Of a DNA stretch of 64,000 nucleotides, positions 8,161-62,661 are shown piece after piece. Numbering within the stretch: the first letter of the stretch is position 1; every line of letters starts with the position of its first letter. Both the position numbers and the translations under genes were made by a program. The notes under the pieces were generated by a model that worked only from the letters and a program-made list of their open reading frames with translations, did no database searches and was not told the DNA's origin. Origin of the DNA: Cymodocea nodosa (Eukaryota > Streptophyta > Magnoliopsida > Alismatales > Cymodoceaceae); contig CM072339.1 in NCBI GenBank assembly GCA_036874045.1, forward strand, positions 11,291,501-11,355,500, written 5' to 3'.

Positions 8161-9339
8161 TGTTAGGTATTTAATTTTGATGATGTATGCTTTATTAACG
8201 TATTTAAATAAGTCTACATAATATTCTCTAAGTATAATAGTTAACAGATTATCGAAAAATTTCATTTTTATGTCGGATAAATTAAACATTTCCGAAGAGC
8301 TAGATTTGCAATAGTTAAACTTTCGGATAGTTAACATTTCATTTTTGTCGAATACTTTATGTTAAAAACTCGTATAGTTAAGTTATCCACACGTTTGTTT
8401 TTAATGTGCGTTGGTAATGAAAAATCGAATAGTTAGATAACTGTTCGAGTTTTTATACGCATGGATAGATAACCGTTTGAGTTTTGTAAAAGGACTAACG
8501 AACAGATAAGTTTCCTTGTTTTGTCACGTGTTTTGTAGGTGCAAGAACTTGAAGAGTTAAAGGATAAGTGTTCGAGTTTTCACAGGAGTTAAAGGATAAA
8601 TGTTCGGCTAAATCGAAGACTTAGAAGATATTCTACAAGACTCCAACAAGATGAAGTTTCGGTGAATCTACGAGTGGAGATCGTGGAAACTCAAAATGTT
8701 AGTAAAGAAAGTGGAAATTTAAATAGAAAGTAATTTGGATTAAAGAGAAAATTAGTACGTGGATTATGGATTATGGATTGTGGATCAAGTGGATGAACAT
8801 GCTGAATGTGAAAAACAACAGAGTTCGACTACTAATAGAGAGTACAAGCTACATTACAACAGAGGATCCCAATCTCAAAAACGAAGTCTGAATATTCAAT
8901 CTGGATCCCCAACTGAAAAGTTAAGTTTGAATATTCATATTCTGAAAAGTTCTCCAACATTAGAAGAAGTTTGAAATTCCAAGCAATTTTAGAAAAGGAG
9001 CTGCAAATGCAAGAAGTCTGGAAATTCGACAACTAGAGAAGAAGAGATACAAAAGCTGAGCAAAGAGAAAGAAAAGAGCTGCGTGCATAAAGATCAGGTT
9101 TTATACAATTCAAAATTAGTTTTGAAAAAGAGCTTTGTTTTCCTATTTGAATTATATATCAAAAATTACTGTATCAAAATCGTCAAGAAGAGAATTGAGC
9201 TGAAAAGATATTGTAAATTCTGTCTTGAAATAAAAGAATAGAATTTCATTTAAGAGTGTTTTGTGCTCTTGTTTTATCCGCTAGTTTAATTACTAAAGAC
9301 ATAATTCACCCCCCCTCTTGTGATACAGACGATCCTACA
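8161..9339 (+). repeat. C1 5' LTR (family 1)
   Basis: Starts TGTTAGGTATTT and ends GATCCTACA; 1179 bp. It is nearly identical to the 3' LTR at 19497-20695 apart from small indels, such as about 18 bp missing after the CACGTTTGTTTTTAATG region near 8392-8410. It holds a dyad at 8425-8448 (TCGAATAGTTA, 2 bp, TAACTGTTCGA), a further TCGTATAGTTA-like site near 8370 and a CACGTG at 8525. The U5 end has the CACCCCCCCTCTTG pyrimidine run common to these copia LTRs. Confidence 0.95.
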
Positions 9340-9341
9340 AC

Positions 9342-9353
9342 TGGTATCAGAGC
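9342..9353 (+). other. C1 primer-binding site (initiator tRNA-Met)
   Basis: TGGTATCAGAGC, two bases after the LTR end, is the standard plant copia PBS with no mismatch over 12 bases. Confidence 0.95.
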
Positions 9354-9443
9354 ATTTTAAACTGTTTAAAGCATTCGAAAGCCTTCATTTCTCTATTTAG
9401 GAATTGGTTTTTCCTATCATTTACTTCGAATCATCTATTTAAA

Positions 9444-11456
9444 ATGGATAATTCTGAAATCTTAGTTATGGCTGAAGGACAAACCACTAATCGTCCTCCT
9501 ATGTTTGAAGGTAGCAATTATAGCTACTGGAAATATAGGATGAAAGTATTTTTTCAGTCAATCGATTTCAAATTATGGCATATAATTAGCAATCCTATAG
9601 TGTTAGTTACGACTCCATATGATACTTGGACTTTTGATGAAAAGGAGTGAATGACACTGAATGCTAAAGGATTAAAAATCTTATTTTGTGCTTTATCTCA
9701 TGATCAATTTAATAAAGTTTCTGCATATCAAACTGCATATGAGATATGGCATGCATTAGAAGTTGCCAACGAAGGTACTAATCAGGTCAAGGAATCTAAG
9801 ATCAATATGTTAGTACATAAATATGAGCTTTTTAAAATGCATGAAAATGAATGTATCTCTGACATGTTTTCTCGTTTTCTTGAGATTATAAATTCATTAA
9901 AATCTTTAGGCAAGAAATTCGAGGAAAGAGACTTGGTAAGAAAGATCCTTAGATCTTTAACTAAAATTTGGGCTCAAAAGACAACATCTATTGAAGAGTC
10001 TAAAGACTTAAATACATATACTCTCGATGATCTCATAGGAAATCTAACAGCCTATGAAGTACAACATTTAGATCCAAAAGGGAAAAATCCTAGAAGGGAT
10101 CTGGTTTTTGAGGTTGATAAAGTCTTAGAAGTCACTAGTGATTCTAACGATGATTTATTGTTGTTGACTAGAAAATTTAGAAATCTGTTGAAGAAACGTA
10201 GGAACTTTAGGTCAGCAAAGACATCTGGAGATATGGAGAAGAAGTCATTCACGAAAGACAAAAGTATATGCTACAAGTGCAACAGGCCGGGTCACTTTCA
10301 AATTGATTGTCCTCTCAACAAAGATAAGAACAATTTGAGGAGGAATTTCAGGAATAAGAAATTCAGAAAGAGAAGGGCGCTTAAAGTGACATGGGATGAC
10401 TCTTCAGCTTTACAAAGTGAAGAAACAAAGGATTCAACATCAGACAATGAATCCTCATCAACATCAGATGCAGAAGAAAATCTGGCAAATGTATACTTTA
10501 TGGCAAAATCCAGTGAGGTATTCTTTGATCAAAATGCTAATTTTGATAGTTTTGATGGATTACTTGTTGAATACAATAGACTGGCCAGAAAATATAAGAA
10601 AGTCAAAATAGAAAGAAAGGACACTAGGAAAATGCTAGATGAATCTGAAAATAAGATTGATTTTCTGAACTCTACGGTGAATAAATTTAAAGAAGAAAAT
10701 CAAAGGCATGCACAGGAAATTTTAAAGTTCACTGCTATAGAAAGAAAATTGCATGCTGATTGTGAAAATTTAATTGTTGATAAGAAGAAAATGATCTGTG
10801 AAATTGAAAAACTAGAACTGACTATTACTGATTTAAATTCAGAAATTGATGTGTTAAAGATTAAAGTCTGCGATCAAAAGGCTATATTAAGTAAATGGAA
10901 TAATAGTCAAACTTTAACAAATGAACTCAATAGTAAAATATCAAATGTAGAAAAACATGGTATTGGTTTACATGATGCATCTTCTGAAAATTATATATTG
11001 CACGATGGTACTGCTAAAAATAATGTCTTTATTTCCAGTACTAAGAATAGTAAGAGAAAAACTATTCCGTGTGTAATCAAAAAGGAAGAAAAATATGTGC
11101 AAATTAATGAAATGCAGCATATAAATGATAGCACACGATGCAAGAATTTCAAAAGAAATCTTTAGAAGAATCAAGCTAAGACATTTGAGAATTTTAATAT
11201 TCTTGATCAATTTTCTTCATATTTAAAGAATATCGGATATTGGAAATCAAATAATGTCAAAAATGAAAATTTCAACTTTGGTTTGCATGGAGATAAATGT
11301 TCTGATAATTATAACACTAAGAGAAAGAAACACAAAAATAATTATCAGAAAATAGATAAGTTGAAGTCTAAAAATATGGATTATTTTGATATGACTCTCT
11401 CTAAAATTCTTGGACCCACTCAAAAATGGGTTCCAAGAGATAAAATCTCTTTTTGA
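9444..11456 (+). pseudogene. C1 copia Gag, broken by nonsense changes
   Basis: Gag forms the nucleocapsid that packages the element RNA. One frame runs from MDNSEILVMAEG (start chosen 90 bp after the PBS) to a TGA at 11454. The N-terminus has NRPPMFEGSNYSYWKYRM, the typical SIRE/UBN2-like start, then an alpha-helical gag core (INMLVHKYELFKMHENE..MFSRF), an intact CX2CX4HX4C knuckle (CYKCNRPGHFQIDC, near 10270) and a long coiled coil after about residue 300. Stops: TGA at 9648-9650, where copy C2 still has CGA, and TAG at 11163-11165. No frameshift is seen inside gag. Confidence 0.9.
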
Positions 11457-11467
11457 CTGTTTTGTAG

Positions 11468-12638
11468 GTACACAAATCAAAATGGATAATGGATAGTGGA
11501 GCATCCAGCCACATGACTGGAGATATATGATTACTTACAGAAATAACAAAGACCAAGAATGGACAAGTTACCTTTGGAAATAAAAGCAAAACAAATATCC
11601 TTGGGTCTGGCAAGGTTCAGGTAACTGAGAAATGTTTTATAAATGATATCTTATTAGTTGAAAACTTAGGTTTTAATTTATTGAGTGTTCCTGTTTTAAT
11701 GAAGATTTACAGAATAATTTTTAAAAAGATTCCTGTAAAATTATGGACATGACTACAAACAAAATTTTATTCACTGCATACAAGAAAGGATCTATTTGTA
11801 TTCTAAATTTGTCTTCTGATATTATTAAAGACAATGCTTGCTTAATTGCAAAATCGGATGAAGTCATTTTATGGCATAGAAGGTTAGGACACTCAAACTT
11901 AAAATTATTACAAAAGCTGTCTAAAAAGAATCTAGTTAGAGGTTTACCTAGTATTAAGTACTCGTAAGAGTTTATGTGTGATGCATGTCAACTAGGTAAA
12001 TTACATAAAACATCCTTTAAAAGCTTAAATGAAATAACAAGCAAAAGAGTATTAGAACTAGTGCATATGGATTTATTTGGACCTACTAGAACAACCAGTC
12101 TAGGAGGTAAACATTATGCTTTTGTACTAGTTGATGACTATTCTGATTTACTTGGGTCTATTTTCTAGCTAATAAAACTGAAGTTTTTGAAATATTTAAG
12201 ATATTCTGTAATAAAGTTCAAAATGAGCAAAATGTTAAAATTCAAAAACTTAGGAGTGATCATGGTACAAAATTTGATAATGATCAAATGGACACCTTTT
12301 GTGAAGAATTAGGCATAGATCATAAGTACTCATTTCCAAGAGCTCCTTCACAAAATGGGATAGTAGAACGTAAAAACAGATCACTTTAGGAAATGTCTAG
12401 AACCATGTTAAATGAGAATAAGTTACCCCTTTTTCTCTAGGCAGAAGCAGTTCATACAGCATGCTATGTTATAAATAGAGTACATCTAAGACCAATTTTA
12501 GATAAAACTCCTTATGAGATATGGTATAACAGGGTTCCCAAAATAAGTTATTTAAAACCCTTTGGCTGTAAGTGTTTTATTTTAAACACTAAGGAACGAA
12601 GAGACAAATTTAAAGCCAAATCAGATGAAGGGATTTTT
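11468..12638 (+). pseudogene. C1 copia protease and integrase, broken
   Basis: The protease active site is MDSGASSHMTG near 11489-11520. The pre-integrase domain shows LWHRRLGH (near 11870) and CDACQLGK (near 11976), both zinc-binding. The integrase core has HMDLFGP with the first Asp, VLVDDYS with the second, and GIVERKN with the Glu. Frame changes occur near 11740 and 12150, and stops replace Gln or Trp codons (for example RSL*EM near 12388 and FL*AEA near 12438). The integrase C-terminal region continues in frame into the RT ORF. Confidence 0.85.
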
Positions 12639-14564
12639 GTGGGTTATTCCATTAGAAGTAAAGCATATAGAGTTTATAATAAATCAACAAAAACCATTCA
12701 GGAAACCCTGCATGTGAAATTTTATGAAAATTCTCATTTGGATTTAAGACATGTTGAAAACTTTGATTCAGAAATTCTCCCAGAAATAGTACTAAATGAT
12801 GTTGACAGAGAAATTGATAGATTATCTGACGAAATAAGAAATCTAAGTTTGAATGATGAAAATTTAGAAGAAAATAATGTCATACCTATAGAAAATATGG
12901 AACAACATAGAAATTGGCGTTATGCTTCATCTCATCCTATTGATCAGATAATAGGCGATCCTAATCAAGGAGTTAGGACTAGGTCATCAATAGTCAACAT
13001 TTGTGGTGCTTATTCATTTGTTTCTTTACTAGAACCTAAGATAATTGAAGATGCCTTAGAAGATGAATTTTGGTATTTAGCTATGCAAGATGAGCTAAAT
13101 CAATTTATAAGAAATGAGGTATGGGATCTAGTTCCACCACCTGAAAATCAATCCATAATAGGAACAAGGTGGGTATTTAGAAACAAAGTAGATCAAGATG
13201 GACATATAGTTAAAAATAAAGCTAGATTAGTTGCTCAAGGTTACAAGCAAGAGGAAGGAATTGACTATGATGAAACATTTGCTCCTGTTGCTAGACTAGA
13301 ATCAATACGAATTTTGTTAGCATATGCTTGTTATATGGATTTCAAATTATATCAAATGGATGTTAAGACTGCTTTTTTAAATGGATATATAAAAGAAGAA
13401 GTGTATGTAAAACAACCTCTAGGTTTTGAAGATTTAAAACATCCCAAGTATGTTTACAAGCTTAAGAAGGCACTATATGGCCTTAAACAAGCTCCTAGGT
13501 CATGCTATGAAAGATTATCTAAATTTCTTATGGAAAAAGGGTATTCTATGGGAAAGGCAGATTACACTCTTTTTATCAAGAAGATCGAAAAAGATATATT
13601 AGTAGTTCAAATCTATGTAGATGACATCATATTTGGAGCAACAAATGATAAATTAGTTGAGTCCTTTTCGAAAGACATGACTAATCAATTTGAAATGAGT
13701 ATGATGGGAGAACTATCAATTTTCCTAGGCTTACAAATTAAGCAATTAGATCAGGGTACTTTTATTTCACAAGAAAAATATACTCAAGATTTATTAAAGA
13801 GGTTTGGTTTAGACAACACTAAAACAAAGAATACACCAATGAGTACTATCACCAAGTTGGATAAAGATGACTCTGGAAAAACTGTAGATGTAGAACAATA
13901 TAGAAGTATGATTGGTTCATTACTCTATTTTACAACTAGCCGACCAGATATTATGTTTAGTGCGTGTACTTGTGCTAGATATCAATCAAATTCTAAGGAA
14001 TCACACCTACTTGCTGTTAAACGAATTTTTAAATATCTATTAGGAACCATCAATTTCGGACTGTTTTACTTTAAACACAGTTCTTTAAACTTAGTAGGTT
14101 ATAGTGATGCTGATTTCGTAGGATGTATGTCTGAAAGAAAAAGCACCAGTGGCACTTGTCAATTATTAGGAAATTCTTTAGTGTCATGGTTTAGCAAAAA
14201 ATAAAATTGTGTAGCATTATCTACAACTGAAGCTGAATATATAGCTGCTGCACTTTGCTGTGCTCAAATCCTATGGATCAGACAAATCTTAAAAGATTTT
14301 AATTTAGACTATGAACCAATTAAGATTTTCTGTGATGGTAGTTCTGCAATAAGTTTATCTAAAAATCTGGTCTTACATTCACGAGCAAAACATATAGAAG
14401 TTCGACATCATTTTCTAAGGGATAATGTTATAAAAGGAAAAATCGTATTAAATTTTGTTCCTACCATAGAACAATTAGCAAATCTATTTACAAAACCCTT
14501 AGATGAAAATACATTCTCAAAATTATGATTAGAACTTGGTATCTGTAGGTTATCTGATATTTAA
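12639..14564 (+). pseudogene. C1 copia reverse transcriptase and RNase H
   Basis: The frame is open from 12639 to 14204 and then continues past three stops to 14564. It starts with the integrase [19 protein letters not shown] tail and a variable linker, then [47 protein letters not shown] and an intact catalytic YVDDIIFG near 13614. RNase [32 protein letters not shown] and SRAKHIEVRHHFLRD. The stop at 14202-14204 is TAA for a conserved Gln codon; TGA follows at 14526. The W of APRSWYE is Cys here. Confidence 0.9.
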
Positions 14565-16567
14565 TGGTCCTGTTCATTGTATTTTGGTTTGTTATAAGGT
14601 AGTTTTAGAATTTAATGTCTTTATTATTAAAAAAAAAAACAAAACAAAACAACATATCTATTTTCGAATTATAGTTTTCTAGTAGTTAAGAATTTATGAA
14701 ATTCTGATTTTTATTGAAGTCAATTTATTTAAGAAAAATTCAGAAAAGATTACTTAAGGAAAAGTTAAATTGATTCAATGTGAGTGCCAACTATATTTTT
14801 GTTACTTATGTATATGCTATTACAGAGATTTTAACAGGAAAATACATAGAAAGTATGTACTTTTTATTAAAGGAAAGTTATTAACATTCTGTTAGAAAAA
14901 TTAAGTCTTGCGGTTGCTTCTAATTTAATTTACTATCTTGTTTTATTTTTATTTATTTTTTGTCTGTAATTACTTGAGTAATTAAGTCCGTTGGGGGATC
15001 TTAAACCAACTGGTTTGGGATGTGCTGACTGAAAACTCATTTTGCAAGTAATTCAAATTATATTTAAAAAAAATAAAAAAATTACCTGTTCTCACTTGTC
15101 ATTGAGTAACTGGTTATCTTTCACCTAAGCAAGGGATTATGATCACATAAAAAGATGATATTGTGGGAGGTAATACATAAAATATATATATATGAATATA
15201 AAAAAAAGAAGAAGGGGGCAATGTACTCAAGCTTAATTTATCTATCAAGGTGTTATAACAATCCTAACATAATCTGTGCATATAATCCTTGTTATTTTTG
15301 TTATTATCTACTCTTTACACATAATGTACGATATTTATTTGTCTTAAGTTGTGTACTCATTATTGAAATCTTTTAAGTTTCTGTAGGTATATCTCTATGA
15401 ATTATCTTCTGTAAACTGAATAAGATAAAAGCCAGAAAGTCTAAATTGTTAACTCTACTACTTATTTCTGTATTTCATTCAAATTAAAAAAAAAAAAAAA
15501 AAACAGAGAGACTCAAATCTATTTAAGGCTTAGCATCATCTTTAAGTAAACTATTTGACCTTTTTAAGCCAACTCTACTTAGGGCTTGGCAACCCAAATT
15601 AAGTACGCCATAGATTCTTTACACTACATTTATGTAGGGGGAGCAATTTCTTGTATAATAATTCATAACTTTTGAACTATTATATATTTTCATGAAAGAA
15701 TCTGCATAATTTCAGGAAATATACCTTAATTAAGTACATTTCTAAACTGTCGGTGACTTGCAGGTATTTTAATTCTTAACTATCCAAATTTTCTATTGTT
15801 TCGACAAGTTATATTACAAGTATCGGACAATTGTGTTTTAAAACGTTCAACAGACTATTTTATTATTTCCTGAAGTACACGTGTCGAAACCATAATGCAT
15901 GACTTAAGTGGATTTTTGGTAAGTTATCTGTAACTCTTTGAAATGCATCTGGGCATCGGAAAGTTAGATTTGTAACTGTCCGAAACATCTCTTTATTATA
16001 AAACTGCTTAAGTACACATGTCATGATCTGGACAATTGACTTAAGTTATCTTTCGGAAGGTTATCTGTAACTCTCTGAAATGCACCTAAGCATCGGATAG
16101 TTAGGTTTATAAGTCTCCGAAACTTTCTGAACACCTTAAGTTCAAATTGTGCATGTGTTGAATTTCACTGCTTTATAATGTCTCAATCGAAACTCGAATA
16201 GTTATGTTTAAATCTTCGAGTTTTCACACCTATTCCTTCGAGAAACTCGAACAGTTATGATAAGTCTTCGAGTTTTCTCACTTTTTCACTTAGCCTGAAG
16301 TTATTTTCTTTATATGAAAAATTACGCTAAGTATTCTGCAATTGTTGGTTATAAAACTTGTATAGTTATTGCAAGCACTCGAATTTTTTATCGATAACGA
16401 ATCTTATATTTATGATTTCAATGATTGAATCCGTTTATCCATTTCTAAACTCGGGGAGTTATGAATGTTTTCCTAACAACCTTTCGTGTTTCTACCTTGG
16501 TAATACCCTAGCTTCACAATCTTTCCTTCCACTAAGTTCTATAGTGCAAAGCAAAGATTAATCAACA
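14565..16567 (+). other. C1 post-pol noncoding block with Athila-LTR-like segment
   Basis: No gene is supported here. It holds A/T homopolymers (A runs near 14630 and 15487-15503). From about 15690 to 16000 it is clearly homologous to the Athila U3 of copy B (about 23030-23290): TGAAAGAATCTGCATAATTT, GTACATTTCTAAACTGTCGG, TTTTATTATTTCCTGAAG and TGCATGACTTAAGTGGATTT. From about 16140 the sequence is shared with the C2 remnant and carries family-1 half-sites directly before ORF3. Confidence 0.8.
16194..16271 (+). promoter_or_regulatory. Paired dyads before C1 ORF3
   Basis: TCGAATAGTTA (16194-16204) faces TAAATCTTCGA (16209-16219), and TCGAACAGTTA (16247-16257) faces TAAGTCTTCGA (16261-16271). 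They are the same type of head-to-head half-site pairs as in the C1 LTR at 8425-8448 and 19788-19811, lying 300-370 bp upstream of the ORF3 start. A promoter role is inference. Confidence 0.5.
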
Positions 16568-19171
16568 ATGTTAGGACATGGAAGAGGACGTGGTAGAATG
16601 ACCAAAGTGTAGAAAAGAGAGCTAGAACTTTAGAAAATGCAGAATGAAATCAACTATATTTACTTCAGGTACACTTTTTCAAACAAAGTACTACACGAAA
16701 TCAGAAAAGCTGTTCAAGATGAGAAAAATTTCTATTGGAAATTTATTCGAAATTATGCTGAAACACAGTTTAGACTAAAACAGATAGAACTTTCCGCATT
16801 GCATTTATGGAAAAGAAATTTACAACCTAACCCTGCTGTTGTAAGTTCTAGACATGTACTAGAGACATCGGTATAGTCTATCACTTATTATGGAAAGAAG
16901 TGGGGACCAATGATCGAAAATGCAAACAGGGAATTACAATCCTTGTATTCCCAACATTATTTTCCCCTAGCTGTTTTAGATGATATTAAATAGTATATCA
17001 ATGAACAGAAAACTGCCATTAGCAAAATGGGCCTTCGAAGTGAAGGACAAAGAGTTTATCAACTCAAAATGGTAGAGGTGGAGAGCTTAAAACTCTAGAT
17101 TCCATTATTATCACCTAGGCATCTTGGTGAAGGACCATCAAGACAACAGGTGCCTTTAACAAGAGAAATTAAGACAATTTTAGAACCTCTTGAACAACCT
17201 GAAACACTGTAGACATATAGTTAGACAAAGAAAAAGACAATTGAATATTTTGGACTAACTGCAAGTGTACAAGGAATATTGCAGCAAAACGAAGAATCAG
17301 TGAAAAATGGAAAACTATGCTCCATTGCAGAAGTTGGACAAACATTTTTGTCAGGAATCCTAGTAGATGTGACAAATATTGGCTTACAAGCATATACTCT
17401 AAGGTATTGTGTCACATTAGTGCATAATGTATCTTTTAATACAATGGACAGTTTTTCACACAATGCTGCAAGCACACATTCTTTTCCTACGAAAAGTGAG
17501 AATGTAGGAAAGTTTGATGATATATATATAGATGATATCAAATTTGATGATATTATTGATGACATAGACACTGAGGCTATGAATTTTGAAGATATTTCTT
17601 CTAAAGAGGAATGCACAGATATTCTTCCTCTTATTGTATCTCGAACAGAGACTTTTGAATTTTGATACAGTTGCTTATACTACACTTTATATGTATGGTT
17701 ATGTCTGTTACAATATATCGTATACTTGTTGATAAATGTATATAATCAACAACATACACAGTTACAAATAGAATATGATACTACCAATGTCTCACATATA
17801 CAAATTTTAGAAATATAGGATGATTCTATTCCATAAACAGATATAGAACATTCTTTCATACAGAGACAATTGTATAGATCACATATAGATATACAGGTTG
17901 TTGATATACAGATTGTTACAGAGACTGTTGCTACTGAAATGTTTCCAGAAAAACAAACAAAAGAAATTCAGTAGATTATTGATACGACAATAACAGATAT
18001 TTCAGACATTTATACTAGTTTTGATAGAAATTCCCCCAGTTCTGAAAGATCTGACAATATAGATGCTGCTGATAATATTGAAACAAGTCCCAGATCAGAA
18101 CATCATGACAGGAAAATACCTAATCCTGAGCAAAGTTTAGATGCAAATACACTATTATGGTTCAGAAATAATTCCTGTTATGACAAATTTCAGACATATA
18201 AAACTTTTACAGTTTTATATTCAAGACCAGTTAAGTTTGAAGGGATGGCACACATACGTGAACTGTTTGAATTTCAAGGCTTGTTGACTCTACTTCCACC
18301 ACAGCCAGGCCATCTTGCTATACCCGAACTTCTCAGTTGTTTTTACTCAAACTTAATAGTGGAAGAAGGTATTCTTGTTTCTAATATACAAGAAAATGAC
18401 ATATATTTAACTCCAGATTTACTTCATCAGGTACTTGGTCTGAAAAATGAAGGAGTTAAATTATCAGAAAGAAAACAGGTTTATCGATTGGGATGGGACA
18501 TTACAAGTTTAGCCAAAGATCCAACTGCCAACAAACCATTGACATTACTAAATGACTTAAATGGCCAAGCACGTTTTATTGCAAAAATATTGCATGCTAC
18601 ATTGTTTCAGAGGTTTGGTCATGGGGCAAAAGTTAGTAGATATTGTCTTTATACTACATACGCATTAATCAACCATATACAGGTGAACTGGTATGATATT
18701 TTTGTTTCTCATATCTTACATTTGCAGAGTAAATTATTTTATGGTGATACAATTTTGAGAATTGTGGCAAGTCAAACAGATATTACACCTTGGCCATAGA
18801 AAAGATTAAAGTCACGATCTTTCTCTGCAAAGGAACTCCAAAAATACCAAGCAGTAGATACACCTATCCTTAGACAACAACAACAACAGGTTCGGCAAAC
18901 ACAGCAACAATCCACAGAATTTACAGAAACACAGCAACATACAGATATACAACAAGATATACATACAGATATACAATAGGGTATACACAGAGAAATACAT
19001 ACAGGTATAGATACAGACATACATACTGAATTTTTACAACAACCATCACAAGTTTCTCAAAATGATTTAGATCAGGCATTACTTGATTAGATAAACAGAG
19101 TTAGTACAGATATTGCAAAGAAAATTTCAGATACCCTGATTGATATTTTTCGAAGACAAAGAGGCTTGTGA
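16568..19171 (+). pseudogene. C1 ORF3, accessory protein shared with Athila
   Basis: One reading frame of 868 codons with about a dozen in-frame stops and no visible frameshift. The start MLGHGRGRGRM is conserved in the C2 remnant. The middle is acidic and repetitive (DDI units near 17515-17570). The C-terminal third starts with YSRPVKFEGM, then IRELFEFQGLL, PELLSCFYSNL, LTPDLLHQVLGLKNEG, LNGQARFIAKIL and KLFYGD. These match position by position the Athila ORF3 of copies B and D. The tail is Gln/Thr-rich with D-I-H-T repeats. Post-pol ORFs in SIRE and Athila elements are often called env-like, and the CFYSNL region resembles the domain called putative plant transposon protein; I see no clear signal peptide or membrane anchor, so function is unknown. 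Confidence 0.8.
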
Positions 19172-19482
19172 TTATACAAATTATGTATTACATGATTTAT
19201 TTTTTGTAATTTGTAACCAAAACCATTACGTAAACTGTTTACTGATTTTAATGTTACGTGATTATTTTTCAGAGTTTATGAATTAAGCAGTTTTTGCTTA
19301 ATCCATAAATCCTATGTATGGTTGACATTATCGTTTTGATTAATATATACTTAGTAAGATATCCTTCCTTACATTTATAAAACTTAACTTCCTAAAGGGG
19401 AAGAAAATAGTTTGTTTACTTTTTTATAATGCCAAAAAGGGAGAGATATAAATTATGTGACTTATTAGGTTTTGACATCATC
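19172..19482 (+). other. C1 3' noncoding region
   Basis: No ORF. AT-rich, with the phrase TTTTGACATCATCAAAAAG just before the PPT, which resembles the equivalent TTGTCATTATCAAAAAG before the family-2 PPT. Confidence 0.6.
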
Positions 19483-24978: not shown

Positions 24979-24985
24979 AGTTTTC

Positions 24986-41116: not shown

Positions 41117-41123
41117 TAAAACT

Positions 41124-49771: not shown

Positions 49772-49773
49772 TT

Positions 49774-51175: not shown

Positions 51176-51353
51176 GAAATACCTTATTATGGTGGAGTGA
51201 TTCGATCTTATAGAGATGACACCACTGTGTTTGCTATCAAACGAAGATCAGGTCATATGTGGCTGCCAAGAGGCAATGGATTTAATGTTTTAAGGACTAA
51301 CTCCATTGGACCCAAGAAGATTTAGGCACCAAAAGCTTTAATTTCAGTATGAT

Positions 51354-52910: not shown

Positions 52911-54431
52911 GTAGATGAAGCTTGTAAAGATACCTACTGGATAATGGCTATGCAAGAAGAATTAAATCAGTTCTAGAAAAACAATGTGTGGGAACTAATA
53001 GAAAAACCTACAGGAAAATTCATCATTGGAACTAAATGGATTTTCAAAAACAAATTAGATGAAGATGGTAACATTCTCAGAAATAAAGCTCGATTAGTTG
53101 CACAAGGCTACAATCAGCAGGAAGGTGTTGACTATGAAGAAACTTTTGCTCCTGTAGCCAGGATTGAAGCTATTAGAATGTTGCTTGCCTTTGCAAGTAG
53201 TATGAAGATAAGATTGTTTCAAATGGATGTGAAAAGTGCCTTCTTAAATGGAGAAATTCAAGAAGAAGTGTTTGTTAAACAACCTCCTGGATTTGAGGTT
53301 GAACTCAAGCCAGATCATGTCTACAAACTGAGAAAGGCTCTATATGGTTTGAAACAGGCACCTAGAGCTTGGTATGAGAAATTGAAAAGATTTTTAATTG
53401 AAAACAATTTTTCTATAGGCAAAGTGGACAGCACTTTGTTTATCAAAACTTTTGATGTGCACATGTTGATTGTACAGATATATGTTAATGATATAGTCTT
53501 TGGAGCCACTTCAAAAGATCTCTATCATGAATTTCAGAATTTGATGAAAAATAAATTCGAAATGAGCATGATGGGAGAATTGAAGTTTTTCTTGGGATTA
53601 CAGATTCATCAAATGCATAATGGTATCTTTGTTAATCAAGAAAAATACTGCAAAGAGATGTTGAAGAAATTTGGCTATGAAAACATCAAATCCGCAAATA
53701 CTCCAATGAGTTCAAGCATTAAAATGGAAATGGATGATTCAAGTGTTGTAGTGGATCAAAGGCAATATAGAGATATGATTGGATCCTTGTTATACCTTTC
53801 AACCAGTAGGCCAGATATTATGTTCAGTGTATGCTTGTGTGCTAGATTTCAAGCATCACCAAAGGAATCACATTTGAAATCTGTCAAAAGGATTTTCAGA
53901 TATCTACAAAGAACAAAAGATTTCGGATTATTCTACTCAGTTGACAGTAGTTTGACTTTTACAAGCTATAGTGATGCAGATTATGCAGGCAGCAGATCTG
54001 ATAGAAAAAGCACCAGTGGTACTTGTCAACTACTTGGATGTTCTTTAATCTCATGGTTCAGTAGGAAACAAAATTATATAGCTTTATCTACTACTGAAGC
54101 CGAGTATATTGCAGTTGGATTGTGTTGTGCACAAATCCTTTGGATGTAGCAAACTCTAGCAGATTACAGACTGAAAATTTAGAATTCAATCATATTTTGT
54201 GATAACAACAGTGCAATCAGTCTATCTAAGAATATAGTACTTCATTCCAGAGCCAAGCATATCGAGATCAAACATCATTTTCTGAGAGATCATGTGGAGA
54301 AAGGGAACATTTCACTTAAGTTTGTGCCAACAGAAAATCAACTTGCAGATATTTTCACCAAACCTTTAAATGAATCAACTTTTAATCATATTAAACGAAA
54401 TCTAGGAATATTTTCTTTACAAGATCTTTAA
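52911..54431 (+). pseudogene. Family-2 copia reverse transcriptase and RNase H
   Basis: [51 protein letters not shown]; the catalytic motif reads YVNDIVFG instead of YVDD (GAT to AAT near 53485), removing the first essential Asp. RNase H: YSDADYAGSRSDRKSTSG, STTEAEYIA, FCDNNSAISLSKN and the normal end at TAA 54429-54431. Extra stops lie at 52974-52976, 54147-54149 and near 54180; no frameshift. Confidence 0.92.
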
Positions 54432-54810: not shown

Positions 54811-54823
54811 AAAAAGGGGAGAT
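54811..54823 (+). other. Family-2 polypurine tract
   Basis: AAAAAGGGGAGAT directly before the TGTTAGG of the 3' LTR. Confidence 0.9.
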
Positions 54824-56123
54824 TGTTAGGACCCTAGTATTTTGATAATACAAAACCTATGTGAGGAAACATATTGTATTTCACAGTTAAGTCAGTGCAG
54901 CATTAGATCAAAAGGCAGATAGAACAGATTCCATGTAGATGAATAGATGGAGAAGTTTCTAGATAATACTGTCTTAAACTTACAGGAAAATCGGATAGTT
55001 ACAGGTTTAAGTATCCGAAGGGCAAGTTTAAAGCAGTAGCAATACTATCGAATAGTTAGAAGAATAACTATCCGATTTTACAAAACCTTTAGAGAGTTAT
55101 TTTATCAAGCAGTTAAGGAGATTGAATGATCGGATAGTTAAGGAGTTAACTATCTAGAAGCTACAAGCATAACTTTCCAGAACTTAAGTCATTTTATTAC
55201 GTACGTGCAAAATGGAGATGCCGGTAGTTGAAAGCTTAAAAGGGAAAATTGGAGAGTTAGATAACTATCCAAAATTTCAAGAGAGTTTCGGTGAGTTACA
55301 ATTTAACTATTCGAAACTTAAGTCATTGAATTTCCCACGTGCAGAATTCCGATTGGATGACAGCTCACATTTAAATATTCTGGAATCCTACCTGGTAGTA
55401 AAGGTTAAGTGATCTTTTAGTGAATTACAGTTATTCTTCAAAGAGTTGCATAGCTAACCATCCGACAGAACAGGAAAATCGGTAAGATATCTTGAAACGA
55501 TTTTCTGAACGGTCGCTTGCCATATTGGGACTTGATCCTAATTAAGTATAGTAGAATACACCCATTGGAGGAAAATATGATCGTTGTACATATCAAGTAT
55601 ATATTCAAAATACAGACAACGGATATACGTGAGACATACACAGTGAGCTACACTAAAAATTCCAATTACACTCAAGTCTGCAAACAGTGAAGAATATTCA
55701 GAAGATCTGTAGAAAAAGCTCTTGCGCCAAAACTCTGATTGAAGGTTTAAAGTTGTTGGTTCGTGGCTTCAACTTGAAAGCTACATACAGTGTTGGTTTG
55801 AGTTTCGACCTGAAAACTCTAGAGGTTGGTTTACTAAAGTTTTTACCTGAAAACTTCTGTGTAGTTGGTTCTTGCTTTGACCTGAAAGCAAGTGTGTAAG
55901 TGTTGAAACACTTAGTGAAGTCCAAGTGAATCTTGGGGGTGGACTAGCCAAATTGGTGAACCACCTAAAATTTTGCTGTGTGTTTCTTATCTCTGTTGAT
56001 TTGCCTTTTATTAGTTTCATCTCATTACATTTTTGTTGAATCATTCGATTCAACATTAAAAGAATTTTAAAACTACACACTTTCACCATTCACCCCCCTC
56101 TAGTGAGCCTATCGATCATAACA
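54824..56123 (+). repeat. Family-2 3' LTR
   Basis: TGTTAGGACCC...CATAACA, 1300 bp. Dyad TCGAATAGTTA (55048-55058), 6 bp, TAACTATCCGA (55065-55075). Lacks two or more of the repeat units found at 48400-49030. Confidence 0.93.
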
Positions 56124-57115
56124 CTATCGGCTCACCACCATAGACAGAAGTAGAAGCAGAAGCAAAAATGCTGGAATCTCTAGAGCATTCCCAGCCAATT
56201 CAAGTTCAACACATGGAAGATGAAATTCAAGAACAAACCCCTCTAGAGCAACAAATTCACATTCCTAACCCGACTTAAGCAACAGTTTTGAATGAAGTAC
56301 ACTTTTGGAGTTAGGAAGCATATAATAAATATCAAGAGATTAGGGATTATGATATCATTTACAGTAGACCAGTAAACTAGGATGGGATGCAAGAAATTAA
56401 GGATTTATTTGAGTTCCAAGGTCTACTGCAATTTATTTCTCAATAGAGAGGGCATGCAATATATGAGAATCTAGTGCCCTGCTCCTATGCAAATTTAAGA
56501 GAAGGAGAAAGTGGATTAATTTCCAACGTGGAGAAAGTTGATGTACAGATAACACCAGAGCTTCTCCACAACATGTTAAGACTGAAGAATGAAGGAATAG
56601 AAATTCTGGAAAGCATAACTGCAATCAAGTGGACAAAATAGATAATAAAGGATTGTTTAGCTATCAATCTTGGTGTACCATTATTAAATAGACTAAAGCA
56701 CTTAAATAGTAAAGCACACATGATAGCTAACACTTTGATTACGAATGTCTACCAACGACAAGGTCATGATATAGAACTGAGTCAATTTGTCAAATGGGCC
56801 ACATATGTAGTTGTGAACAAAATTCAGATTAATTAGTCTGTAGTGTTTATCTCCAAGCTAGGAGTAGTAAAGAAGAAATTATTTTATGGAGATCTGATTC
56901 CACTGCTGATGGTGGATAGTATTGATTTCATGAAATGGGCATCCAAAAGGATAAGATTAAGAACCATTTCAGTGAAAGAATACAAAAATTATGTTGCTAC
57001 TAAGATTATTAAACCTTCTGGAGGTATTACAGGAACTATAGAGAGGATAAATCAATTAGAGCAACAATTAGAAAAACTCCAAAAGGAAGTAGATGAACAT
57101 AGGAAGAAAGGTTAA
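56124..57115 (+). pseudogene. Athila ORF3 3' part (copy B)
   Basis: Resumes with GSPP after the insertion, then Glu/Gln-rich sequence, IIYSRPVN*DGM (TAG for Trp), IKDLFEFQGLL, NLVPCSYANL (FYANL changed), ITPELLHNMLRLKNEG, LNSKAHMIANTL, KLFYGDLIPLLMVDSIDF, SVKEYKNYVATK and a C-terminal coiled coil (INQLEQQLEKLQKEVDEH). It ends RKKG-TAA at 57115. Matches D ORF3 throughout and C1 ORF3 in this part. Confidence 0.82.
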
Positions 57116-58261
57116 ATTGTATTGTTCGTCTACTTGTACTTATATTTGTATGAAAAATATCTGATTGATTGTAATGTAAATTATTCATATAAATGAATGA
57201 ATATTTTTTAGATGTTTTTGCATTCATGTTTAAGAATGATATAATTGATGAACTATATTGAATATTATATAACTATTTAAACAAGATGTAAGACTGTTTA
57301 AAAGATTTATAAATTTTTTGAATGACATGATTAAATGCAAGATAATTGGTTAATGCTGAAAATATCTACATGTTGCAAAGTAAAATGTAAATTTTGCACA
57401 ACAGGAAAGGAACTGCAAGTTAAATATGCATAAAATGTTCAGATTTAAATGAATTTTATTTAGAACACTACATTAATGACATGTATTTAACTTCATTTAA
57501 GTTGAAAAAAAAACTATACAAGAGAGAAAAATATAGAAGTTAATATGAGGAGAGTAAGTTTTAGAAATTTGCTTAGTGTTAAATCAACGGAGTAAGTTCG
57601 TTGAGTTAACCTTAACTCCACAAGGTCAATAATATAATATAAGGTCACTCCGTTGAGTTATCTGTAACTCAACGAAGTTAGTCTGTGGAGTTAGCAACAG
57701 TAATCGAAGCTAGTCCGCTGAGTTCACTGTAATTCAACAAGGTTAGTTTGTGGATTAAGCTGAACGGTTATTCTTTTAGCCATGAACGAAACTTCGTGGG
57801 TTTAGTAGTTACTGACATTTGAAATTAGAAGTGGAACACGTATCCATAAAAATAGGAACCACACTACACGTTACAAGACACATTCTTGTAACGAGATTCA
57901 TTTGCTTTATGGACGTGCATTATAAATAGAGAATAGCATGTTATTTATGAGTTACCAGCACTTTTGAAAGAAAAGGAAATTTGTTGGGGAACTGGGAGGA
58001 GAAGCAGCTTATTCAATTTCATCTATTAACAACTATTTATTGAATATAAAGCTTCAAATTGGTATGTAATTAATCTTCTGCTATTTTACTTTATGTTAAG
58101 AGTTTATGAGCACATGGATTTGTTCTCCTAGCACTAGATGATTAGTAAGAACACCTACACAGGATTATTCAACATAGAGACGTATTGAAAAATTTTCTAA
58201 ATCAGACTTTAACGAAATCCTTAGGGGTGTAGCTAACCTTTCTTTAAAAGAGAACGAAGAT
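57116..58261 (+). promoter_or_regulatory. ORF3-gag spacer with dyads and TATA box (copy B)
   Basis: Noncoding; AT-rich from 57116 to 57560. Dyad CCGTTGAGTTA (57650-57660), 4 bp, TAACTCAACGA (57665-57675), plus half-sites 57583-57765. TATAAATA at 57921-57928 stands 334 bp before the gag ATG. Conserved in copy D at 35561-36666. Promoter activity is inferred, not shown. Confidence 0.55.
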
Positions 58262-59430
58262 ATGGTTGCTCCAATGGAAAAACCATTAGGAGAAATTCTA
58301 TATCCTGAATTAGTTGATGAACCTTCATGTATTCGTTGCCAAACTTTGAGGAAGATAGGTTTGAACTGAAATCTAATTATATTAGTCAATTGCCACATTT
58401 TCATGGATTAGAAAGAGAAGATGCCTATTATTTCCTTAGAGAATTTAATGAAGTTTGTCAAATGATGAAAATGTCGAACATGAGTATTGATGCTATTAAA
58501 CTTAGATATATCTCTTTTGCTTTAAAAGACAGCTAAGAGATGGTTATATACTTTGTCACCTGATTCAATTTCTACAAGGACTGAATTTTGCTCTATTTTT
58601 CTAGAAAAATATTATCGAACACATCAAACGATTAAAAAGAAAAAGGAAATATTAATGTGTAGCCAAAAATAGGGAGAATCATTTTGGAAATATTTTGAAA
58701 GATTTATTGACTCAATGTCCACATCATGTAATGAGTAAAGCACAAATAATAGGTATAATTTATGAAGGCATAGATGTTTCAACAAAATCTTTATTAGAAT
58801 GGATTTTTAAAACTGTGTAGTGAAGAAGCATGGGCATATTTAGAAAACTTTGCAAAAAGAATTGCATAGTGGGAAAACTTGGCTGAAGCTATTACAGATA
58901 AAAGAATATTGCCAAGGGGAATGCATGAAATAGATTCAAGCACTATGCTTGAAGTTAAATTAACTAAATTAATAAAGAAAATAGAAGAGTTATCATTAAA
59001 TTAAAAGCTAGCAGAAAAGAATGCAAACATTAATGACTTAGATATTATTTATGTTAGAAACTAGAAAGATAACTTTGGAAATTCTTATAACCCTAATTGA
59101 AGAAATCACCAGAATCTATCTTGGAGAAACAATAATTTTCAGGGAGGAGAAAATATAAATGACAAAAGTATAAGTTATGAAGCATTAATTGAACAAGGAT
59201 CTAGAATAGAGAAGTTAGAAAAGATAATTCAACAATTAAATAATCGTCTAGATCTTGTATTTGGAAATGCTACCATTTGAAATTAAAATATGAATAGAAA
59301 TATACCCCCTAGACAGAAGGAATCAATAGAAGTTAAACCAACGGGAGGATTGCCAATACAAGTAGTACCTAACCTTGTCAACAGAACTATTAATGAAATT
59401 GATACCTCCTATGGGAGGGAAGTTGAATGA
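58262..59430 (+). pseudogene. Athila capsid-type gag, displaced downstream (copy B)
   Basis: MVAPMEKPLGEILYPELVDEP, FELKSNYISQLPHFHG, YFLREFNEVCQMMK, ISFALKD, then FWKYFERF, CPHHVMSKAQIIG, EEAWAYLENFAKRI, the RNHQNLSWRNNNFQGG tail and a terminal coiled coil. Frameshifts near 58335, 58530 and 58805 and several stops make it more damaged than copy D. The reading before the ATG (EKFSKSDFNEILRGVANLS) is open back to a TAG at 58175 and conserved in D, so a longer N-terminus or a spliced leader exon is possible. Confidence 0.83.
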
Positions 59431-59471
59431 AGTAGTATAACTAAAGTAACTATGTATAATATAGTAAGTAA

Positions 59472-59498
59472 ATATATATATATATATATATATATAAA
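59472..59498. repeat. (AT)n microsatellite
   Basis: About 12 AT units between gag and the F-box dyad; not present at the corresponding place in copy D. Confidence 0.85.
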
Positions 59499-59532
59499 GA
59501 AAAAAATGTAAGTTTAAGTATAGTTAGTAGTA

Positions 59533-59559
59533 TCGTAGAGTTATTACTTAACTCAACGA
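59533..59559 (+). promoter_or_regulatory. Dyad before the F-box gene (copy B)
   Basis: TCGTAGAGTTA, 5 bp, TAACTCAACGA; a second half-site pair follows to 59600 (CCATTGAGTTA, TAACTCCACGA). A 3' splice-site-like TTTTTGTTCATGTTATACAG ends at 59652. Confidence 0.55.
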
Positions 59560-59663
59560 ACTTAGTCCATTGAGTTATGACCTAACTCCACGAGGGTGTG
59601 TAAGTAGCTATGTTAATTTTGTCCCTGTTAAATTTTTGTTCATGTTATACAGAATCACAACTG

Positions 59664-60803
59664 ATGGAATTGATGAAATTACCACTAGATGTACTAAGGG
59701 AAGTACTAAGTAACCTGTCAGCTAAAGATCTGTTCAGATTATGTTGTGTATCAAAGGAAATCAAAGACTATGTTAGAGAAAAATATTTTTATGGACTCCA
59801 AGCTGCAAAAATGACTAAGATTAGAGATGGATTTTTATGGAAGTCATTTAATCGTAGTTCAATCAGCTATGAATATCTGAATATGGAAGAAACTACTGGA
59901 ATTCGACCCAATACATTAGAAGGAATAGATCATATTATGGGGATAGATGAAAGATTAATTATTTACAGAACCAAACCAAGGTATGCAATTCTGTTACTCG
60001 ATATTTTGATTAAAAATTCTATCACAAGAGAACAATGAAATATATGAAGGCCTAATAGATTTGAAGTACCAACTGAAAATTGTGGGTCAGCTTTAACATT
60101 TTCTGATAAAAATTTGACCATTCCTAAAAAATTATATTATTGGAGACCAATTGGAAATTGGGATGAAGATTTATGCTTAAGTGTGTATGATTTTCTGAAT
60201 AGATCTTGGATTGAAAATACTATGATACATTTAGAGCAGAAAGCATTAGTTAACAACATACATATTATACTTGATGGATATATATATCTAGTCACAAATA
60301 TATCAGTTGCATTTAGATCTATTTTATACATAGTAAGCATAGACAGTTATGGTGATGATTTTATAGAAATATTACCTATACCTAGTGATATAGCTAAACC
60401 ACCATCTACAGAATATGATAAAATTCAATTAAGAATGTAGTATAATGAATATGATGATCCTTCTTTATGTTTGATAAGATGGTGGGATGAATTGAGGAAA
60501 TTTCAAATATGGATTATGAAAGACCTAAATGAATGGAAGTGGGAATAGGAATATATTGAAATAGATGTAGAAATAGAAACAGCTATATTATCTTGGAACA
60601 GATGAGGATCCCTTTCTGCATTTCATTTCATTAATGGAAATACACTTATATTTAGTATTGATAACATACTGCAAGTTTACAAGCTAAAAAGGAAAACATA
60701 CTACATTAAAACAGAATTAATAGCAAGAAGAATTATGCCTAAAAAGTTTGCATGGACTGACACGTTTATTCCATTTGTTACTACTTTTCAACCATGTTCT
60801 TAA
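59664..60803 (+). pseudogene. Retrotransposon-borne F-box protein gene (copy B)
   Basis: One reading frame of 379 codons from MELMKLPLDVLREVL to PCS-TAA with five internal stops (60036, 60045, 60438, near 60546 and 60603) and no frameshift. Copy D has W, G, W, E and K at these places. F-box residues 5-45 (LPLDVLREVLSNLSAKDLFRLC); F-box-associated-like remainder: LYYWRPIGNWDEDLCLSVYDFLNRSW, HIILDGYIYLV, LYIVSIDSYGDD, LCLIRWWDELRKFQIWIMKD. The two copies agree over their whole length, so the gene was captured before B and D separated. If made, the protein would act as a substrate adaptor of an SCF ubiquitin ligase. Confidence 0.85.
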
Positions 60804-61048
60804 ACTGTGATTTTGTAATTTTAATGTTGTGTGTATTTTGCATTTATTTTTAGAAAAAAGAAAAAAAAATAAAATATCAATCTAGTTTGTTGGTATCTGT
60901 TCTGGGAAACCAATTAACTTACTTGTGAGCCACCAAAGGCATAGAAGCCTGGGTTCCACACAAGACACTGATTTAACAAGTTATGTTTTATTATTTTGTT
61001 ATATATTCTACTTTTATTTGTGAATGAAAAGTTTTTCAGAATCAAAAG
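60804..61048 (+). other. Athila B 3' noncoding region up to the C3 insertion
   Basis: Homologous to the reverse complement of 32768-33055 (GGTATCTGTTCTGGGAAACC, GTTCCACACAAGACACTGAT). No ORF. Interrupted by C3 after CAGAATCAAAAG. Confidence 0.8.
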
Positions 61049-62661
61049 TGTTGAGTATTTTTGTTTTGATGATGTGTGCTGAATGAAAATAATCATATTT
61101 GCTCAATTACTATCGCTTGTGAAAAGAAATTTAAATCTTCAATTAATACAGAAAAAGCTTACTGATATAAATACTTGTCTGTATTGGATCTGAAGTTAAT
61201 AACTAGTCGTTTTGTTGCATTAATTTCTCATTTAGCTAAACGTTAAGTTAACGTGTGTTTTTATTGAAAAGCATGATATGTTTTAATGTTATATCTTCTG
61301 TATCATGAACAGTGCACGTTTAGACAACTCGTTAAGTTAGAGTTTTGTTTGTATAGAGGTCACGTGAGAACTCGTTAAGTTAGAGGCTTAAAGGTTAAAA
61401 TAGGTCACATGATAATTCGTTAAGTTAGTGAGTAAAAGAAGAGACGAACTCGTTAAGTTAGTGTTATACACGTGGTGAAATTATAAGTTACGAATGTTGT
61501 ATTGTATCACATGAGGTGCATATGTTTAACTCGTTAAGTTAACATAACTAAACGCGTTGAGTTGCTATATTGAACACTAAGGCAACGCGTTAGGTTAGCG
61601 TTATAAACTTAAGTTGTTATTTTTGCACGTGGTAAAATTCTTATTATAAAAACATTTGTTTATTACTGGTTCGTTGAGTTATCATAAAACAATGAAGATG
61701 GTTCGTTGAGTTATCATAACACAACGGAGATGGTTCGTTGAATTAGCATAACACCACGGACTTAGTTCGTTGAGTTAGCTACAGTACTTGTCACGTGAAA
61801 TGGCATATGAGGAACTCGTTAAGTTAGAAATGTTAAGTTATATATATACTTGTGTTACTCGTTTAGTTAACATTAAAGTAACAACTTCTTATTACACTAA
61901 TGAAAAACTTTTGGACGAGAAAGTTTATTTAGCAAGAAATTTTTCAGACATCTAGGACTGATGATTAAAGAAAATTCAAAATATAAATGTGGGTCATAAC
62001 GTGTGTGTTTCGATGAAGGAAAAAGAAAAGACGTGGAGAAGTGGAAAACTGGTGGTTGTTAAATGTGAAGGATATGCATGAAATGAAGATACAATATAAA
62101 AGGCATAGAATTCTCGTTGATCAATTTATCCTTGCACACAAAAAGAAAAATCTTTTCGAGGATCAAACCATCCTTGCACACCAAAAGAAAAATCTTTTTC
62201 AGGGATGAAAAACACCTTCTCGGGGAAAATCTCTCAAGTGGAAGAAAGTTCAGTGAAGCATAAAAAGGTAAGATTTTCGTCACTGAAGATTTGAAGTATT
62301 AGAAGAAAGCAAATTCGGTGAAGCATGAAAAGACAAGATATCCGTCACTAACGAATTGCTGAAGAAGAAAAAGAAGAAGAAGAAAGATCTCAAACAGGGA
62401 GAAAAGTTTTAAATTCCGTAAATTAGTTTTCTCTATTTGTAGTTATGAAATTGTTTAGATGATACATGGTATCGAAATATAATTGCATCTACAATTTATG
62501 AGGAGAATTGAATTGTATATTGTAATTGAAACCTTGAATAAAAATGATTTTATGAAAACAATGTCTCGACTTGTTTTTGAGTTTTAAAGTTTCAATTATA
62601 TTTCAGAAAATATTAAAAATACACAATTCACCCCCCTCTTATGTAGCCATACGATCCTACA
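61049..62661 (+). repeat. C3 5' LTR (family 3)
   Basis: TGTTGAGTATTTTTG...GATCCTACA, 1613 bp. Half-sites TCGTTAAGTTA occur repeatedly (61329, 61374, 61450 regions) and TCGTTGAGTTA (61703-61713) faces TAACACAACGG (61717-61727). CACGTG occurs several times (61362, 61470, 61627, 61793 regions). Block 61505-61600 is shared with the Athila D and A U3. A 34-bp duplication (AAGAAAAATCTTTT...ATCCTTGCACAC) lies near 62130-62200. Confidence 0.93.

Follow-up and report, generated by a model that had tools for sequence, protein, structure and literature searches.

Palindromic motifs of high copy number in long terminal repeats (LTRs) are a published trait of the Sireviruses. In 13 of these elements, Bousios et al. 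(2010; PMC2829016) described palindromic repeated motifs (RMs) in the upper half of the LTR; where an env-like open reading frame (ORF) exists, RMs are mostly found upstream of it. They were presented as Sirevirus-specific, being absent from the classic Ty1 elements compared there, and as built around a CGG-CCG core, with Tnd-1 as one exception; the available part of that paper reports no common factor. We here describe a related case from 64 kb of the genome of Cymodocea nodosa (GenBank CM072339.1, positions 11,291,501 to 11,355,500, forward strand; this whole stretch is called the window). The window has 31% GC and consists largely of nested plant LTR retrotransposons. An 11-bp half-site, TCG-N3-AGTTA (as a search word TCGNNNAGTTA), recurs there in three Ty1/copia families (copia-1, copia-2, copia-3) and in three Ty3 elements (T1, T2, T4), more often as a head-to-head dyad than alone. 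The author of the original prediction, made from the letters of the window, knew of no named plant element of this form. In view of the RMs, the form is not wholly new, yet several features appear to be new: the longer bipartite half-site, its flexible spacing, its presence in Ty3 elements, sequence blocks common to both superfamilies, a co-enriched G-box and an extra ORF that is homologous between Ty1 and Ty3 elements. No report of the site or of RMs in Ty3 elements was found in the open-licence literature of PMC, a scope outside which most subscription papers fall.

Other described systems are more distant. The maize Sirevirus palindrome CACCGGACNNNGTCCGGTG, as quoted in PMC10760457, is likewise a clustered LTR palindrome with a short spacer, but it has 0 matches in the window, and the available text of that paper describes secondary structure with small RNAs. 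The VANC/VANDAL anti-silencing system (Hosaka et al. 2017, PMC5735166) is similar in that a short motif is dense in non-coding transposon DNA and differs between related families. As far as the accessible text goes, however, that motif is arrayed in one orientation and its reader is a transposon-encoded protein; the VANC21 motif YAGTATTAY is at chance level in the window (5 vs 4.7). REM-GDE1 and CLSY3-4 motifs (PMC12270911, in the part available) are short, repeated, located at plant small-RNA loci and read by DNA-binding proteins, but they are other sequences and not enriched here.

Most likely, the sites form a cis-regulatory, enhancer-like array of the Sirevirus RM kind, which would be read by a sequence-specific DNA-binding protein, probably a host factor, and which Ty1 and Ty3 elements would share via U3 blocks. 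We give this reading a probability of about 0.6. One of its bases is the abundance of the half-site. Exact copies number 86 in the window (52 on the plus and 34 on the minus strand), whereas 100 dinucleotide shuffles yielded 1.15 on average and never more than 4, so that chance composition can be rejected. The word is the top-ranked of the 3-N3-5 words against 30 shuffles, and the gap of 3 bp is dominant: any other gap from 0 to 15 yields 0-7 sites. Of the exact sites, 50 lie in seven LTR or linker segments (19.1 kb together), and every one of these segments greatly exceeds the counts from 300 shuffles of itself. When gapped and ungapped 8-letter words were ranked within single segments, the rank of TCGNNNAGTTA was 2 in the T1 LTR, 4 in the linker of copia-1, 9 in the LTRs of both copia-2 and copia-3, 26 in that of copia-1, 35 and 37 in the 3' regions of T2 and T4, respectively, and 43 in the T4 LTR. 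Several higher-ranking words (CGGATAGT, CGTTAAGT, TAACTCAA) represent portions of the site in family-specific form; others, such as AT or A repeats and TGAATATT, do not. In a 12.5-kb gag-pol control, it is not among the words with at least 3 copies.

Variants are over-represented, too. The commonest single changes within TCG give TCA 33 times (5.7 expected), TTG 20 times (5.8), CCG 14 times (0.4) and TAG 13 times (3.9); ACTTA replaces AGTTA 18 times (1.2 expected), and both T of AGTTA are nearly invariant. The predicted family bias of the middle triplet is strong at its first two bases (p < 0.0005) and weak at the third (p 0.015; 50 sites, seven segments). One recently copied segment is rejected as the sole cause, since seven segments are enriched and the flanks of the 86 sites fall into 22 clusters under a loose single-linkage rule; sharing of homologous blocks between some segments is nonetheless real. 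The overlap with the MYB core CNGTTR that had been suggested exists in 9 of the 86 sites and is minor; window-wide, CNGTTR shows a slight excess (195 vs 170 expected), and it was rejected as an explanation. So were the REM/CLSY, REM8, VANC21, maize RM, W-box, CHR and heat-shock motifs, none of which is enriched in the window.

The seven dyads quoted in the original prediction are all present at the coordinates given there, letter for letter. Allowing 3 mismatches in all and spacers of 0-12 bp, the window contains 105 head-to-head dyads, as opposed to 0-4 in 10 shuffles. The anticipated spacing preference is evident: 85 dyads have spacers of 2-6 bp, and 20 have spacers of 0, 1 or 7-12 bp. Partners with at most 1 mismatch to an exact half gave 6, 7, 6, 8 and 14 counts at spacers of 2, 3, 4, 5 and 6 bp and none at -10 to 1 or 7 to 33 bp, and partners with at most 2 mismatches gave 50 counts at 2-6 bp and few at others, all made per exact half, dyads of two exact halves being counted twice. 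The 85 dyads are distributed over Ty3 elements (37), copies of copia-1 together with the flank 7127-8159 (19), copia-2 (20) and copia-3 (9). The preferred spacer is 6 bp in copia-2, 4 bp in Ty3 and 3 bp in copia-3. With up to 3 mismatches, the 5' LTRs of copia-2, copia-3 and copia-1 hold 12, 5 and 3 dyads, respectively, and the copia-1 linker holds 7. For 23 of the 86 exact half-sites, the best partner at these spacers has at least 4 mismatches, like 84% of random positions, which implies that the half-site also matters unpaired. Among consecutive dyad steps of up to 130 bp (reduced set, eight segments), 9 of 33 measure 31-34 bp. These come from copia-2, copia-3, T1 and, in T4, both the LTR and the 3' region. 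In nine such steps of the window the linkers differ (ACTAAGT, ACTAACC, AGATGGT, GGTTAGT, ATAAAAAG or GTTTTCTTT).

The sites lie almost wholly outside DNA labelled coding. LTRs contain 63 exact copies (17.8 kb), linker, leader and 3' regions 20 (17.7 kb), the unassigned stretch 7127-8159 contains 2 (1.0 kb), and stretches labelled coding contain 1 (27.4 kb). The last one, at position 112, lies inside 1-272, which aligns with the 3' region 44894-45167. In seven copia LTRs the exact sites start 129-374 bp in and end near or before the middle. A confinement to U3, as had been expected, is not seen, the 20 sites in linkers and 3' regions being the exception. Similarly, the sites at 36133, 38993 and 45128, originally ascribed to Athila LTRs, belong to regions between pol and the 3' LTR; Ty3 LTRs do carry sites, but at 5347-6939, 23288-23492, 29876/30938 and 41431-42683.

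Between copies of different elements, AGTTA and the T of TCG are altered less often than the flanks. In homologous copies, 48 of 770 cells of AGTTA (6%) and 11 of 154 cells of the T of TCG had changed, as compared to 416/2310 and 478/2310 in the flanks (18-21%). The tally was begun from sites that are exact in one copy; as it includes reciprocal and related pairs, its counts are not independent. The third triplet base was changed in 44 of 154 cells; for the C and G of TCG the figure is 67 of 308 (22%), which agrees with CpG decay. When the two LTRs of one element are compared, the site and its flanks change at similar rates (AGTTA 9/145; flanks 19/435 and 53/435).

The three Ty1 families carry the junction signatures of Sireviruses, as defined in the available text of PMC2829016, and their dyads thus correspond to the RMs. 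The polypurine tract (PPT) was considered in copia-1 and copia-2, the 3' junction of copia-3 falling outside the window. In copia-1 it is an exact AGGGGGAG at 19487 with the AT/TG junction, and an extra copy is found at 15636; copia-2 has AAGGGGAG-AT/TG at 54814, one base different, and extra exact copies of AGGGGGAG at 54653 and 54677. The 5-nt intervening sequence and the tRNA-Met primer-binding site (PBS) are seen in copia-1 (CA/ACTGG/TATCAGAGC), copia-3 (CA/AGTGG/TATCAAAGC) and, in weaker form, copia-2 (CA/TTTGG/CATTAGAGC). The poly-C integrase signal (6-8 C and then TCT, some 30 bp ahead of the LTR end) is present in 6 of 6 LTRs, a sample that left out the copia-1b LTR and the copia-2 fragment.

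Like the RM boxes, the dyads are palindromic and of high copy number, lie in the upper half of the LTR and belong to elements with the Sirevirus PPT, PBS spacing and poly-C signal; extra copies upstream of an env-like ORF are seen in copia-1 only (15801-16451, ahead of 17225-18799). The CpG observed/expected ratio is 0.99-1.82 in five copia RM clusters, at a GC content of just 0.32-0.35, and 0.18-0.82 in the remainder of three copia LTRs and two gag-pol stretches. TATA-like words follow the clusters downstream in some LTRs and are absent from others. Unlike the published boxes, the arms here measure 11 bp with a variable 3-bp core and a 2-6 bp spacer, the invariant part is TCG...CGA, and half-sites also occur alone. 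CGG...CCG is missing from most sites: TCGG is found in 30 of the 86 exact sites and in none of copia-3. Moreover, the LTRs of T1, T2 and T4 and the 3' regions of T2 and T4 carry the site. The dyads thus behave like Sirevirus RMs and yet lack two of their published marks, the CGG-CCG core and the restriction to Sireviruses.

A second motif accompanies the half-site. The G-box CACGTG occurs 29 times in the window, as compared to a mean of 2.17 and a maximum of 6 in 100 shuffles (13-fold), and 22 of the 29 have an exact half-site no more than 60 bp away. LTRs contain 27 of them (copia-1, copia-1b, copia-2, copia-3, T1, T2 and T4), the copia-1 linker and copia-2 gag-pol one each, and the Ty3 3' regions none. 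In five LTRs with half-sites masked, CACGTG is the leading hexamer (12 vs 0.5; log10 P -12.8, the next word reaching -4.2), with 1, 4, 3, 3 and 1 copies per LTR. Many of the 29 sit in related LTR copies. G-boxes are bound by bZIP and bHLH factors, and the clusters therefore look like enhancers for host factors.

The presence of one site in Ty1 and Ty3 elements had been taken to suggest a common factor. This is still the best explanation, yet exchanged U3 blocks account for at least part of the sharing, as opposed to independent evolution of the site. A block of the copia-1 LTR (LTR positions about 155-512) matches the LTRs of T1 and T2 at 71-85% in six pairings, with E values down to 5e-113; the best one reaches 85% over 356 bp. 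In the block of copia-1b and T2 the similarity holds outside the half-sites (162/187). The copia-1 linker matches the T2 LTR (81.5% over 292 columns), the copia-3 LTR matches that of T4 (75% over 147 columns), and copia-1 and T4 LTRs do not match at E 1e-4. The left junction of the T2 block coincides with a half-site (23288; 8323 in copia-1): upstream of it T2 resembles T4 and the copia-1 linker, downstream the copia-1 LTR. In T1, the similarity begins slightly earlier than the half-site. A single junction of this kind would not prove that half-sites promote exchange. A precedent within one lineage is the recombination among distant Athila families reported in the accessible part of PMC2410132. 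That sites were gained in blocks suggests that they may benefit the element.

An extra ORF provides a parallel, at the sequence level, to the shared cis-sites. Its second piece in copia-1 (17975-18799, plus strand) is homologous to broken ORFs in T4 (36844-37629, minus) and T2 (56261-56938, plus). With the T4 piece it aligns at 41% (150 columns, E 7e-37); when the search was restricted to the window, the figure was 35% (265 columns, E 7e-49). The finding deserves attention, because the 3' ORFs of SIRE elements, present in 74% of them and forming 19 groups, have little or no mutual similarity according to what is available of PMC6317226. The T4 piece comes close to PF20167 of Pfam but stays below threshold (E 0.003, 18 bits, cut-off 45); the copia-1 ORF gave no such match. 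A protein search returned nothing at E 1e-3, and the structure model (mean pLDDT 31) was not used.

Such an ORF could also invert the argument: the elements might encode the reader of their own sites, as VANDAL encodes VANC, with the triplet conferring family specificity. The same ORF family lies downstream of pol in copia-1, T4 and T2, all of them site carriers. VANC21 recognises a 9-bp motif arrayed in the non-coding DNA of its own family (PMC5735166, accessible text), and extra ORFs of Retand are predicted to bind DNA (PMC11963269, as far as available). The densest array, however, is that of copia-2, whose linker measures about 420 bp and which does not match the extra ORF significantly; it would hence need the protein in trans. 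Also, no DNA-binding domain was found in the extra ORF, and the co-enriched G-boxes point to host factors. We consider self-encoded control unlikely. Its most elaborate version, rather more doubtful, would be a single cis-trans system across Ty1 and Ty3, in which the ORF product reads TCG-xyz-AGTTA dyads, xyz specifies the family, copia-2 uses the protein in trans, and U3 blocks and ORF are swapped.

Several observations weigh against the enhancer-like array read by a host factor. The TCG-N3-AGTTA site could not be matched to any known factor. The evidence comes from one window of one genome. A rigid protein dimer would not usually allow the spacer to vary from 2 to 6 bp, and such lengths would fit hairpin loops as well. 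Helical phasing near 10.3 bp is strong if every step is included (p 0.0003; dyads with up to 3 mismatches) but weak without the steps of 29-36 bp (p 0.03-0.24 in four variants), and only the 32-bp step is therefore claimed. Finally, the triplets of the two arms match each other more often than in permutations: 0.92, 0.51 and 0.70 vs 0.56, 0.36 and 0.53 in Ty3 dyads, and 0.79 vs 0.47 at the first base in copia-1.

Such matching is what RNA hairpins would lead one to expect. Dyads might act as stem-loops in LTR transcripts and feed small-RNA production, as proposed for the maize palindromes, which coincide with an excess of small RNAs (PMC10760457, available text). Palindromes with loops of 2-6 nt are able to fold, and when four LTRs and one gag stretch were folded, some 120-nt windows with exact sites had z-scores between -2.9 and -3.8. 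Other windows with sites, however, have z-scores near 0 or positive, and values of -3.1 and -3.7 are found in two windows that lack exact sites. The triplet matching would equally arise from mixed subfamilies or from a symmetric dimer. Among 19 copia-1 dyads, pairing at the third triplet base is seen in 5%, as compared to 25% by permutation. Stem mismatches show no sense-strand excess of G-U (48 G-U, 55 A-C and 124 other, of 935 positions), 23 of the 86 exact half-sites are unpaired, and a hairpin needs no invariant TCG and AGTTA across families. Hairpins are quite unlikely to be the explanation.

Still less probable is a beacon for silencing, i.e., that a host protein of the REM or zinc-finger type reads the site and recruits the silencing machinery. 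Arabidopsis REM factors do recruit Pol IV to short motifs (PMC12270911, as far as accessible), but the published motifs are not enriched in the window (TTTTGCTTAT 0, AAGCGGAT 1, both strands), and elements should presumably shed such sites, which here are numerous, slow-changing and shared in blocks. That a functionless ancestral palindrome merely spread by tandem duplication and block copying in AT-rich LTRs is hardly credible: some blocks are indeed homologous across families and copia-2 has internal duplications, but the 22 flank clusters, the differing spacers and linkers, the single site in DNA labelled coding and a rate of change of AGTTA and the T of TCG about one third that of the flanks all speak against it.

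The array of the RM kind might then work as follows. Its unit would be the half-site TCG-nn-N-A(G/c)TTA, solitary or, more often, joined head-to-head to a second one across 2-6 bp, and such pairs often repeat at centre-to-centre steps near 32 bp. The reader, most likely a host transcription factor acting as a dimer of flexible arrangement, would dock together with G-box factors. Docking may raise or protect transcription driven by the LTR promoter, and the extra ORF of copia-1 may be served in the same way. Sirevirus-like and Ty3 elements would have come to share the site partly via exchanged U3 blocks bearing it. If so, a single factor would act on retrotransposons of both superfamilies within this genome, and regulatory blocks would pass between them; co-activation and the gain of new control by LTR promoters could be explained in this way. 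For a direct search for the binding protein, the half-site, with its single prevailing gap, limited choice of spacers and adjoining G-boxes, is a concrete probe.

Table 1. Elements and regions carrying the half-site, with related features (positions in the window; borders read from alignments, PBS, PPT and LTR ends)
Feature	Position	Strand	Remarks
T1 (Ty3) 5' LTR	5017-7126	-	7 exact half-sites; copia-1-LTR-homologous block 6322-6680
copia-1 (Sirevirus-like) 5' LTR	8160-9339	+	4 exact half-sites at 8323-8438; dyad 8425-8448
copia-1 linker upstream of extra ORF	14521-17100	+	7 exact half-sites, 15801-16451
copia-1 extra ORF region	17225-18799	+	in two pieces, 17225-17665 and 17975-18799; the latter shows homology to the ORF remains in T4 and T2
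copia-1 3' LTR	19496-20695	+	5 exact half-sites; dyad 19788-19811; preceded by PPT AGGGGGAG-AT/TG at 19487
LTR of second, truncated copia-1 copy	21265-22483	-	4 exact half-sites
T2 (Ty3) 5' LTR	22906-24983	+	4 exact half-sites; copia-1-like block 23288-23642, starting at a half-site
copia-3 solo LTR	25325-26897	+	4 exact half-sites
T4 (Ty3) 3' LTR	29557-31290	-	2 exact half-sites
T4 pol-to-3'LTR region	31291-39396	-	7 exact half-sites; dyads 36133-36158, 38993-39018; extra ORF remains 36844-37629, gag-like 34931-35191, F-box ORF 33427-34224
T4 5' LTR	41117-42920	-	4 exact half-sites; dyads 41398/41431/41464 in 33-bp steps; tRNA-Asp-type PBS (presumed) 41104
T2 region downstream of pol	44679-46653	+	1 exact half-site; dyad 45128-45153
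copia-2 (Sirevirus-like) 5' LTR	48070-49773	+	11 exact half-sites; 12 dyads with up to 3 mismatches
copia-2 3' LTR	54821-56124	+	6 exact half-sites; dyad 55048-55075
T2 pol-to-3'LTR region	56125-59603	+	5 exact half-sites; extra ORF remains 56261-56938
copia-3 (Sirevirus-like) 5' LTR	61048-62663	+	10 exact half-sites; dyads 61671/61703/61735 in 32-bp steps
G-box CACGTG (example)	61361-61366		beside a half-site; further examples 25687, 48472, 23354

The nest itself can be tentatively reconstructed from the alignments. T1 (minus strand) would occupy 1-7126 and copia-1 8160-20695. T2 (plus), starting at 22906, appears to contain the copia-3 solo LTR, T4 and copia-2; T4 (minus) would span 29557-42920 with its pol partly missing, and a copia-3 copy probably starts at 61048, where the T2 match ends. 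Pfam domains of the Ty1/copia type were found in copia-1 (gag 9651-11165, reverse transcriptase 12441-14204), copia-2 (51342-54149) and copia-3 (gag 63171-63662), RVT_2 being the domain found in copia pol. On the Ty3 side, T1 has RVT_1 (reverse transcriptase) at 2332-2739 and T2 an integrase zinc-binding domain at 43475-43948. TGGCGCCGTTGCC, which we take to be a tRNA-Asp-type PBS and a criterion for Athila/Tat-type Ty3 elements, is seen with 1 mismatch at 41104 in T4 and with 3 mismatches at 5013 in T1; at T2 no match with up to 3 mismatches was found. The copia-1 pol is at most 63% identical over its full length to plant proteins among the matches listed, one match reaching 70% over 67% of the query; the at least 120 database matches listed are unnamed or generic Ty1 proteins.

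Relatives of copia-1 pol sought among viral contigs were not found. Two pattern scans of viral contigs gave 12 loci, taken as chance matches because tblastn (E 1e-3) with four proteins of the window had 0 matches and the loci hold 1 half-site in total. Rfam and tRNA scans of the window yielded no match, nor did a plasmid search.

Some minor features complete the picture. The stretch 7127-8159 is copia-like: 7404-7792 is an 84% match to the copia-1 linker (16243-16633), and 7154-7275 an 81% match to the copia-2 LTR. F-box ORFs lie in the pol-to-3'LTR parts of both T4 (33427-34224, minus strand) and T2 (59604-60038, plus strand), with Pfam E values of 5e-10 and 2e-11, respectively. A protein search with the T4 copy gave no homologue at E 1e-3; the ORF is possibly a captured host gene. 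Beside it, downstream of T4 pol and thus in odd order, 34931-35191 (minus) matches Retrotrans_gag at E 1e-8, perhaps a second element or a gag fused into the 3' region.

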